Source: Natrarchaeobius chitinivorans
Lineage (GTDB): Archaea > Halobacteriota > Halobacteria > Halobacteriales > Natrialbaceae
DNA length: 64,000 bases
Direction: 5' to 3'
Assembly: GCF_003841505.1 (NCBI RefSeq)
Contig: NZ_REGA01000020.1
Location: 1 to 64,000, forward strand
The notes below the pieces were generated by a model. That model made no database searches. It had not been told where the DNA came from and saw only the letters and a list, made by a program, of their open reading frames with translations. The position numbers and the translations under genes were made by a program. Shown here in pieces: positions 13,833 to 58,893 of the stretch (positions are counted from its first letter, which is position 1; each line of letters begins with the position of its first letter).

Positions 13833-15295
13833 TTGACATCCTCCCCGCGCTAAAGGGCGAGGATTCCCGACCGCGTTGGGATATTACGGTTCGCGGTTCA
13901 CGACCTGTTCTCGTGGGGCGAAAACACCCTCATCACGGTCGAACAGGCGAACCGCTGGCTGTGCCAACCAGCCGTTATCCCTATCACCGCCATCCGTGGC
14001 GAGACTCGGGAGTACCTTTTGTCGAATGTTCTCCGCACCATTCACGTCCGCGTTCGCAACTGTATCACACTTCTCACACACGTACAGTCCACGTTCGACG
14101 CGCTGATTGTCCTCTGTGTGGCCGCACGCCGAACACGACTTCGACGTATCGCGTTCCGACACCAACTCCACGTCGATGCCTTCTGCTTCCGCCTTGTAGT
14201 CGAGTAGCGTCGTGAATCGGTCGAACGCCCACCCGTGCAAGTCGAGGTTGCCGTGGTCGCCCCAATCCCGGGGTTCGCCGTTCTCGTCGTCTTTTCGGAT
14301 GCCGCCGAGGTCGCCAACGACAAGCGTCCCGACACCCCGTTTGACGCACTCCTCTACGATTGCCTTCGAGAGTGCGTGCAAGAAGTGTGTCCGGCGACCA
14401 CTCCGCTTCCGGTCAAGACGAGTGGCTTCACGGGACGAGGAATCGTCGCACTTGGCTTTCTTCTTCGTGAAGTAGTATTCGTCCTCTTTGAGTGCGCCAC
14501 CGGGATACAACACTGATTCGTCGCCGAACGAAACGGCGGCGAAGTTGCAAATCCCGAGGTCAACACCAGCCACTCCGTCACCCGGCGGTTCCGGGTCGAT
14601 AGTGGTGCGACAGACGAATTGAAGCCGCCAATCGTCGCGTTTGTAGACGGCACGAACCTGTTGAATGTCCCACTCGGTCAGGTCAACGTCCGGGCGGGTC
14701 TGGTACTCGCACAGGATGAAGTCCGAGCGGTGTTCTTTGAGGTTACGTCCTTTTGAGAGGCGAACACGAGTGAACTGTGCGTCGTGCTTGAAGCCAGCCG
14801 CTTTGAACGACACGGTTGAACGTGGGTGGGAGTCTCCGTTTTTGCGGTAGCCGGGCGGTCGGGCACGGTCGTCGCCGTTCCGACGCTTGCCGAACCAGCC
14901 GTTGAACGCTTCAGCGAGTTCTTCGAGAATGCGCTGACTGGATTGAGAGTGTAAGTCCGTGTAGCGTTCGTGGCTTTTGAGTTCGGCTTTGAGTTCCCCA
15001 TCATCGGGAATCTCGCCCGTTTCGTCCCACTGTTCTTGTGCGTAGTAGCGACCGACGTTCCAGAGTTTTGAGGCGGCCCATCCGAGTTGGTCGAGGTCGT
15101 CACGAACCTGTTGCTGGTTCGTAATCCTGGCCTCGAAGGTTCGGATGGTTCGACTCATTTTCTGGCTTCATAACTGGTTATGAACGCCGTTTTGTTAATA
15201 ATGTCGAATGGTGTGGAATATCCGGCCATGCTATCGACGGTGGTTGGTGGAGGGGTTGTCAGCTGTATCCCCGCCCTGAAGGCGGGGTTTTAGCC
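13833..15295 (-). mobile_element. IS200/IS605 (IS1341-like) element carrying only tnpB
   Basis: It sits inside the DUF429 gene. On the element's strand the left end is next to a GGCGGGG/CCCCGCC hairpin (15269-15287), and the right end has a CCTCCCC...GCGAGG hairpin (about 13840-13862) after tnpB. No tnpA is present, so it depends on another copy for movement. The flanking TTCAAG on the left-end side and GTCAAG on the right-end side share TCAAG, as expected of target and right cleavage sites. The ends are set to within a few bases only. Confidence 0.8.
13884..15158 (-). CDS. tnpB: TnpB RNA-guided endonuclease
   Basis: 424 residues. N-terminal helix-rich region (MSRTIRTFEARITNQQ), then RuvC-like segments: Asp in GVDLGICNFAAV, Glu in the VVGDLGGIRKDDENG region, and Asp in NADVNGAENIRQ. 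Between them the zinc ribbon C-x2-C...C-x2-C is intact (CSACGHTEDNQ ... CEKC). TnpB proteins cut DNA at a target set by an RNA made from the right end of the element; that region (downstream of the stop) carries a hairpin. The frame is intact, so it may be active. Confidence 0.9.
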   Translation of the reverse strand: MSRTIRTFEARITNQQQVRDDLDQLGWAASKLWNVGRYYAQEQWDETGEIPDDGELKAELKSHERYTDLHSQSSQRILEELAEAFNGWFGKRRNGDDRARPPGYRKNGDSHPRSTVSFKAAGFKHDAQFTRVRLSKGRNLKEHRSDFILCEYQTRPDVDLTEWDIQQVRAVYKRDDWRLQFVCRTTIDPEPPGDGVAGVDLGICNFAAVSFGDESVLYPGGALKEDEYYFTKKKAKCDDSSSREATRLDRKRSGRRTHFLHALSKAIVEECVKRGVGTLVVGDLGGIRKDDENGEPRDWGDHGNLDLHGWAFDRFTTLLDYKAEAEGIDVELVSERDTSKSCSACGHTEDNQRVERGLYVCEKCDTVANADVNGAENIRQKVLPSLATDGGDRDNGWLAQPAVRLFDRDEGVFAPREQVVNREP

Positions 15296-47390: not shown

Positions 47391-47588
47391 CTACTCGTCG
47401 GCGTCGGACGCCAGAACGTCCCCGGGCACCCGACAGCCACAGGGTGTCGCGACGTGGGTCGTGGGTCCGACGCTCGAGACGATCGCGATCGGCGTCTCAC
47501 AGCGCGGACACCGGGTCACGGAGTCGTCGGGTTCGTCCTCCGGTTCGATGGAGCCGAACGGGTCGTCCGCCCAGAAACAGCCGGTCAT
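47391..47588 (-). CDS. small zinc-ribbon protein
   Basis: 65 residues. CPRCETPIAIV and PCGCRVPGDV give C-x2-C and C-x-C metal pairs. The middle has acidic repeats (PEDEPDDSV). The ATG lies 33 bases from MITE copy E on the far side. Resembles the haloarchaeal mini zinc-finger proteins. Role unknown. Confidence 0.55.
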   Translation of the reverse strand: MTGCFWADDPFGSIEPEDEPDDSVTRCPRCETPIAIVSSVGPTTHVATPCGCRVPGDVLASDADE

Positions 47589-47621
47589 CGTTCCCTCCGG
47601 ATCGGGGCGTGCAGGTGGGCT

Positions 47622-47706
47622 CTATAGTAGCCACTGAAAGCCATTGCACACCCGATCGCCAGACGATCGGCGATCGGTGTGTAAATCGTTTCAGTTGTTA
47701 CTATAG
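47622..47706. mobile_element. palindromic MITE-like element, copy E (diverged)
   Basis: Outer arms CTATAGTAGCCACTGAAA and TTTCAGTTGTTACTATAG are inverted with four mismatches. The inner stem is GATCGCC / GGCGATC with a short loop. In reverse orientation it aligns with copy A from the outer arms through TTTAC and GCAATG. The flanks are CTA and TAG, so no clean duplication is left. It is probably an older copy of the same family. Confidence 0.6.
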
Positions 47707-47818
47707 CCGGCTCGTACCGGACGGGGTCTCGAGGTCGATCGGGCCGCGGGCTGGCGTCTCCGTCGGTCGCCGACCGCGGCGGTACTGTTCGATAGCGGTA
47801 CTGTCGCCGTGCGAGACG

Positions 47819-47950
47819 TTTATATCTCGTAAGCAGGAATGCAAACATGGCTTGCAAACGGCACGAGTTTGGAAGCCAGACTCGGGTGTTCTAGCACCCG
47901 GGGCATTTCCGCGCATGCCCCCGCGGCTCGGTGGAGCCGACTTCCATCAC
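47819..47950 (+). ncRNA. candidate structured RNA (five hairpins)
   Basis: After a TTTATAT box (47819-47825), five hairpins follow in a row: TGCAA/TTGCA (47840-47856), CGAGT/ACTCG (47864-47884), GGTG/CACC (47885-47898), GGGGCAT/ATGCCCC (47900-47921) and CGGCTC/GAGCCG (47924-47939). The region has no supported gene. It may be an independent small RNA, or a remnant of an IS200/IS605-type right end, where such hairpins occur. It is not a tRNA. Confidence 0.45.
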
Positions 47951-48084
47951 AGGATTCTACATATAGTGACTTATAATTACTGATTAGTGGGGGAAAGATA
48001 CCCAGTCGTTTCATCTCCTCCGACACGAGCGAACCCGAAACGGGTGGTGCGATCTCCCCTCGAGGCGACCGACCATCGTCCGTA

Positions 48085-48300
48085 TCAGGCGTGCGTTCGC
48101 TGGTAGTGCATGATCCACAGCGACATCGGCATGCTCGCTGCGATCAGTCCGTACACGCCACCCATCAACGGGGTGACGTCGAACGACGGGGCCAGCAGGT
48201 AGCCCGCGGCGAACCCGATCGGATCCAGCACGAGCGCGAGGATCAGTATCTGCCGTTCGAACGGTTTCGACTCGAGCCACCGAAATGCCGGCCGGTACAT
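48085..48300 (-). CDS. small two-helix membrane protein
   Basis: 71 residues. QILILALVLDPIGFAAGYLL and GGVYGLIAASMPMSLWIMHY are the two spans, with a basic N-terminal MYRPAFRWLESKPFERQ. No family name is recognised. The surrounding gap of about 380 bases upstream of its 3' end holds the candidate RNA. Confidence 0.55.
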   Translation of the reverse strand: MYRPAFRWLESKPFERQILILALVLDPIGFAAGYLLAPSFDVTPLMGGVYGLIAASMPMSLWIMHYQRTHA

Positions 48301-58326: not shown

Positions 58327-58893
58327 TGGGAGAGAGAGCCTGGCTGCCGCGGTGGCCCCGCCGGCGACGGCGCGGCCACAGTACCGCGATACATCCCGAC
58401 GGGATGTGTCACGCTCGCGAGGAAAGTCCCCCCACCCGTTCGGGCGGGTGACCGGACGCAAGTCCGGAGCGGGAGACCGCTGGCTCTGGAACAGAAACGA
58501 CACGTCTCGGCCCGACCTATGACGCGTGCGAACCCGACCGCGAGGAAGGGGAGTTGACCCGCAGAGGGAGGCGGTTCTCGTGCGACGAGCCGAGGACCGC
58601 CGACGAGCGACAGACCCGCTCGCGCGTGCGGTTGACGACCGACGGTTCGAACCCGTCGATCGTGTGTGCGGTTCCCGCCGACGCGGAAACCGCGAGATTC
58701 GAGGCGGATCGACCGCCGAAGACGACGCCACGATCGACCGCACGTCGACGGCCGAGGATCGATGGAACGGCGAACCCTCACCGGTGCAAGTCCGTGCCGT
58801 GGTAGCCCGAACACCCCGCGGCTCCGCCGCGGACGGCGCGGACGCTCAGCCGAATGCCGGGACGAACAGAAGGGGGCTTACTCCTCTCACCCG
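58327..58893 (+). ncRNA. rnpB: RNase P RNA
   Basis: The universal CR-I block GAGGAAAGTCC is at 58419-58429, and the CR-V-like block GAACAGAAGGGGGCTTAC is at 58864-58881, 5' and 3' strands of the core. GGTGCAAGTCC in the 58780s is a further P RNA match. GGGAGAG at 58328 pairs with CTCTCACC at 58885-58892 to close P1 (one bulge). A CTTATTC box at 58299-58305 lies 25 bases before the start. TTTT after the end would favour termination. About 567 nt is long for the archaeal type, so extra helices are likely. Confidence 0.92.

Follow-up and report, generated by a model that had tools for sequence, protein, structure and literature searches.

The hairpins at positions 47819-47950 of the window (the whole 64,000 nt stretch of Natrarchaeobius chitinivorans DNA analysed here) probably form the 5′ leader, of about 100 nt, of a minus-strand mRNA, a leader which would hide or expose the start codon. 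We give roughly three chances in four to this reading, in which the leader would be a translational start-codon switch coupled to a zinc-finger gene in a bicistronic mRNA; the switch is possibly a riboswitch. Comparison of copies shows the element, its strand, its predicted start codon, the genes linked to it and a constant distance to the promoter, and places the true extent of the element at about 47846-47976 on the minus strand (Table 1). An earlier note on this DNA had described the hairpins as a plus-strand feature without a gene. The stems are present, and the fold of 47819-47950 (-53.5 kcal/mol, z-score -3.14) was matched in stability by 0/200 shuffled sequences, as was that of 47840-47975 (z-score -3.32, 0/200). 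However, the CATG is a minus-strand start codon, which puts the working element on that strand, and a conserved minus-strand ORF starts within the stretch (47848), with the hairpins as its predicted leader. The hairpins exceed chance, because the genome of origin holds about 16 copies of the element and the helices covary, covariation being a check proposed in the note.

Table 1. Features of the leader and of the two downstream ORFs in the window.
Feature	Position	Strand	Evidence or remark
TATA-like promoter core TTATAA of the leader	47971..47976	-	sequence; spacer and column identity in 43 copies
Structured leader RNA including the predicted start codon	47846..47947	-	full-length match of covariance model R1, E 2.2e-25 (G000)
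Segment A′ (GGAAGUC), predicted to pair with B in the open state	47939..47945	-	pair counts, arm-swap
Hairpin P4	47924..47939	-	variable or missing in other copies
Hairpin P3 (GGGGCAU..AUGCCCC), 3′ side of loop GAA(A)	47900..47921	-	
Hairpin P2 (GGGUG CUAGAA CACCC)	47884..47899	-	
Segment B (UCUGGCUUCC), partner of A′ or A	47871..47880	-	pair counts, arm-swap, pair probabilities
Segment A and start codon (AAGCC-AUG)	47846..47853	-	the window copy's predicted minimum-energy fold pairs both with B
ORF1, 87 aa, conserved N-terminus and variable Arg-rich tail	47585..47848	-	runs through a MITE in the window copy
Hairpin P0 inside ORF1 (CGAGA..UCUCG, codons 8-12)	47812..47829	-	
Zinc-finger ORF, 65 aa (CPRC..PCGC)	47391..47588	-	start overlaps the ORF1 stop (ATGA)

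The approximately 16 copies in the genome of origin were detected by blastn (E < 1e-5), and a blastn search of 80 genomes found the element in 30, the own genome counted in, with 30/49 Natrialbaceae genomes containing the element compared to 0/31 outside the family. An exact DNA pattern identified 100 stretches in named genome contigs, and the 80 listed of these were from genera which we take to be Natrialbaceae. Covariance model R1 detected copies in 84/242 genomes of Halobacteria (E ≤ 1e-4), comprising 44/61 listed Natrialbaceae, often with many copies each, and 40/181 genomes outside this family, mostly with a single copy. The leader was also found on plasmids and in the halovirus BJ1. Genome G216, from another family, had 18 leader matches up to E 0.01, and in the two loci fetched from it (L055 and L076) the leader was followed by nearly identical Cys-rich ORFs of 45 aa. 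Five loci (L011, L013, L018, L019 and L029) have a tRNA-Ala (GGC) gene just past the leader promoter, and the copy at this site was therefore probably inherited vertically.

This widespread putative leader RNA family matched no Rfam 15 family over the leader. Within 47580-48100 of the window there were two Rfam matches up to E 5, neither of them over the leader, and the four matches in 20 further loci (E up to 1) also lay outside the leader. A literature search on titles and the openings of abstracts gave no paper dealing with such a leader. The suggestion of a new or regulatory RNA in the earlier note thus holds insofar as a regulatory role fits and no Rfam family matches, but the element is better described as a putative mRNA leader than as a free small RNA. 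Elsewhere in the window, the archaeal RNase P RNA at 58328-58892 (+) spans 565 bases compared to 288 positions in the model, suggesting an insertion or expanded arm.

The promoter was analysed in 43 aligned copies out of 46 found in the fetched loci, after exclusion of two near-duplicates (L019, L021) and one degenerate copy (L037). A spacer of 22 nt separated the minus-strand TATA block from the outer end of A′ in 42/43 copies, with 23 nt in the remaining one, and mean column identity fell from 0.81 in the TATA block to 0.50 within the spacer and to 0.45 beyond. In the window, the centre of the TATA block is located approximately 26 nt from the predicted first base of the transcript (47947), which is the usual archaeal distance from TATA box to transcription start. 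The leader thus has this promoter on one side and a start codon on the other, all on one strand, as expected of a cis-regulatory leader. Upstream of the leader in L057, L061, L066, L071 and L077, the TATA box is bordered by operator-like repeats (CCATTAGTC..GACTAATGG, and CCTACGTAGG), hinting at added transcriptional control.

In other families, the CATG that opens R1 is the other-strand ATG of an ORF directly following the hairpins. We compared this in a divergent set of 30 loci from 24 R1-positive genomes, with 27 loci from other families and three divergent Natrialbaceae copies (L056, L059 and L068); the loci are partly dependent, with L066, L067, L071 and L073 near-identical. An ORF of ≥45 aa started at that ATG in 25/30 loci, versus 694/1955 control ATGs in the same loci. 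For comparison with annotated starts we used 15 plasmid and 3 virus loci, picked by likeness to the downstream genes or the L071 leader, of which six plasmid loci and one virus locus had R1 matches (E ≤ 0.01). The annotated coding sequence starts exactly on the predicted AUG in five of these seven (L196, L199, L201, L208 and L210), while in L203 the annotated start is 36 codons downstream of the predicted ATG, in frame. In Halorubrum virus BJ1 it is 17 codons upstream, in frame and flagged 'Valine start', and the true start of ORF7 (L193 3488-3600) is probably the ATG of the leader rather than this annotated Val codon.

The Natrialbaceae ORF1 sequences starting at CATG share the N-terminal pattern M-[IF]-x-[YLF]-[LI]-L-x-[RG]-x-K-..., with Lys at codon 10 in 134/134 rows with a CATG and enough sequence. 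These rows (43 aligned and 91 pattern-found) include some copies fetched twice, and correspond to 52 nonredundant copies; 7/100 pattern-found copies lacking a CATG by the search rule were dropped before counting, several with a shifted ATG or GTG and one at the end of its stretch, as were two that were too short. In the 52 copies, variation in codons 2-7 peaked at the third position (mean entropy 1.18, 0.89 and 1.38 for the three positions), while in codons 8-13 the nucleotides themselves were nearly fixed, and residues 8 and 12 were R8 with L12 in 28 copies, G8 with P12 in 19, and other combinations in five. This pattern corresponds to the second hairpin, P0, within the coding region. ORF1 varies in length from 28 to 190 aa. 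In the window copy, a MITE at 47626-47706 is located inside ORF1 (~87 bp matched, ~40 copies in the genome, 90-98% identity), and the frame stays open through it to the overlapping zinc-finger start; the inverted ends of this MITE are imperfect and were missed by a repeat search with seed 9.

The ORF1 stop overlapped a following start codon (ATGA or GTGA) in 39/50 nonredundant copies compared to 20/66 other-frame control ORFs, and the overlapping ORF contained a CxC or CxxC motif in 30/50. Two leader types pair with two types of zinc-finger protein. Five of these proteins, covering both types, gave no Pfam or NCBIfam match above cut-off, and for the window zinc-finger ORF neither Pfam nor NCBIfam yielded a family up to E 1, nor did PDB sequences include a convincing relative. 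For the divergent loci, the first ORF contained CxC or CxxC in 21/30, versus 93/595 control ORFs of 45-210 aa (mechanical ORFs, not genes), which rose to 25/30 when the coupled second ORF was counted; neither ORF had the motif in L052, L053, L056, L060 and L072. Pfam matches of the divergent downstream proteins were SWIM zinc fingers and one PadR regulator, and a PHROGs search gave strong viral relatives for two of the seven downstream proteins submitted.

These data bear on two origins proposed in the earlier note, the first being a small RNA transcribed from the plus strand, with TTTATAT as its promoter. The string is present, ~29 nt before the invariant CATG, and the plus strand folds well too. 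However, TTTATAT is not a conserved box, because one class of copies (type 2) has CTTTTTG in its place, and in the window it represents the minus-strand Arg-Tyr-Lys codons of ORF1 in the middle of P0, rather than a TATA promoter. P0 is a palindrome centred on this string, and its covariation is real, inside ORF1. Codons 2-7 vary as coding sequence on the minus strand, and we dropped the plus-strand RNA with its TATA palindrome, which we now consider very improbable, because other families have nothing similar at that site and the CATG opens an ORF on the other strand instead. Coding on the plus strand was also rejected, with frames that differ between copies when read by eye. That the element derives from a lost IS200/IS605 or TnpB element, as its right end or guide RNA, is hardly credible: there is a TnpB-type RNA elsewhere in the window, but the region had no Rfam match of this kind up to E 5, and the copies have their own partner gene and a fixed promoter spacing, unlike element ends. 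That TnpB-type RNA is Rfam sot0042 (sense overlapping transcript of TnpB-type genes), at 13842-14017 (-), 34 kb from the element. A mobile repeat or MITE was discarded as well, as copies have their own partner genes and the real MITE is a separate, neighbouring element.

Segments A′ and A share B as a partner, which makes them near direct repeats. Pair counts in the 43 copies showed A:B with P2 and P3 formed in 89.1% of cells, and B:A′ with P2 and P3 in 94.0%, while structures slid by 1 to 3 columns reached a maximum of 48.1% and 47.0%, respectively. We compared pairing of each copy's own arms with permuted arms, a statistic which, like the shuffles, ignores common descent. With 32 nonredundant copies out of the 43 and the plus-strand anatomy, the number of permutations out of 10000 doing as well was 0 for P1, 0 for the palindrome, 1 for B:A′, 3 for A:B, 78 for P4 and 371 for P3; P2 is uninformative on covariation here, since it never varies in these copies, whereas elsewhere its stem varies with pairing maintained. 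The two-state version used 63 nonredundant leaders out of 73 (37 from Natrialbaceae, 26 from divergent loci), and 0/10000 permutations were as good as the own arms for either A′:B or B:A in either group. The control A′:A gave 105/10000 for Natrialbaceae, which shows some effect of relatedness, and 2122/10000 for the divergent loci. The MAFFT alignment (A4) misaligns arms between families, and was used for the consensus only. The copies differ widely in sequence (for instance L062, L065, L201 and L210) with the pairing logic kept, and such conserved RNA structure with compensatory changes is a further mark of a cis-regulatory mRNA leader.

The comparison also shows that the two predicted helices are mutually exclusive, with one of the alternative structures masking the start codon, an arrangement characteristic of riboswitches. 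Most divergent leaders had a minimum-energy fold with a junction of A′:B, P3 and P2. Pair probabilities, computed with energies for 37°C and standard salt rather than molar KCl, favoured the open form in 34/37 Natrialbaceae and 23/26 divergent leaders, but for the window copy they favoured the closed form; they were used in place of energy differences with forced-unpaired ends, which are biased because forcing the ends also breaks P4.

In the mechanism that we propose, transcription would begin around position 47947, just upstream of A′. In the open state, B:A′ would close a multi-branch junction with P3 and P2, and sometimes P4, leaving the start codon free, whereas in the closed state B would pair with A and the AUG, so that the start is hidden. 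The change between these states would set initiation at ORF1, and the overlapping stop and start codons may pass this control on to the zinc-finger gene. The trigger would act on the conserved P2/P3 junction, and could be a protein, a small molecule or a metal ion. That the leader is transcribed, folds in this way in the cell and controls translation is inferred here.

A protein-binding leader, in which a host or element protein such as the zinc-finger product binds the P2/P3 junction without a small ligand, is a version of this mechanism rather than exclusive with it, and we hold it as a tentative proposal, at somewhat less than even odds. The prevalence of small Cys-rich proteins among the downstream genes and the match of two leader types to two zinc-finger types favour protein binding, but P2 and P3 are near-identical before unrelated proteins (SWIM, CPxC, treble-clef-like and one PadR), which makes a shared factor likelier than self-binding; it is possible that a shared regulator binds the leaders. 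A passive start-codon hairpin, or an RNA thermometer or salt sensor without specific ligand, we consider unlikely, as P2, P3 and their loops are conserved beyond the needs of pairing, although a temperature or salt response of two competing folds is conceivable. Against the start-codon switch itself stands a passage in a Haloferax volcanii paper (PMC4983044), where regulation through structured leaders is termed 'not typical in haloarchaea'. The most specific version of the switch, for which the odds are likewise long, would be the first native haloarchaeal riboswitch class, a three-way-junction aptamer sensing zinc or metal state and toggling the start codon of small zinc-binding proteins on chromosomes, plasmids and viruses.

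Searches of plasmid and viral loci for further leaders were mostly negative. R1 had no match at E ≤ 0.01 in nine plasmid loci, namely the Haloarcula-type SWIM loci L197, L200, L204, L205, L206, L207 and L209, and L198 and L202. In these seven loci on Haloarcula plasmids, a gene for TFB (transcription initiation factor IIB family) comes after the SWIM-type gene, as its immediate neighbour in six and behind a VapB/VapC pair in L209. R1 also had no match up to E 1 in the tailed viruses L194 and L195, or up to E 0.1 in L191 and L192, which hold viral relatives of two downstream proteins. Viral contigs contained nine stretches with the DNA pattern, and R1 gave seven weak matches in six; the pattern stretches resemble unrelated hairpins, several of them with surroundings that look bacterial, and were rejected as leaders. 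For the L071-type gene, a protein search of viral contigs gave no relative, and its DNA matched two plasmids and no phage record.

Translational riboswitches in general resemble the proposed switch in being 5′ leaders in which a junction-closing helix competes with a helix masking the start of translation, but the leader described here is archaeal, would mask the start codon rather than the Shine-Dalgarno sequence, and has no Rfam match. According to a statement in PMC8241225, the fluoride riboswitch of Thermococcus kodakarensis was the only natural archaeal riboswitch determined experimentally up to 2021; it too is an archaeal leader thought to act on translation, but its genes are different, and there was no crcB (fluoride) match among the Rfam matches in the scanned regions. 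The leader of ribosomal protein S15 in Halobacteria is likewise a structured haloarchaeal leader, but it precedes rpsO (PMC7247131), compared to small zinc-finger and mobile-element proteins here; no S15 leader was among the Rfam matches in the scanned regions, which is informative only insofar as Rfam contains this motif. The synthetic theophylline switch E of Haloferax volcanii, as described in PMC8241225, masks the AUG together with the Shine-Dalgarno sequence, so a start-masking mechanism can work in a haloarchaeon, but this switch is man-made and is set apart from the present leader by that description.

The leader is widespread, with many copies per genome in Natrialbaceae, though structured leaders are held to be untypical of haloarchaea in the passage cited above (PMC4983044). 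Its helices and start codon offer exact, testable mutations in the well-developed host Haloferax volcanii. The small zinc-finger proteins downstream, which our searches assigned to no family, would make up a putative regulon defined by this leader, and a ligand, if found, would enlarge the archaeal ligand repertoire.
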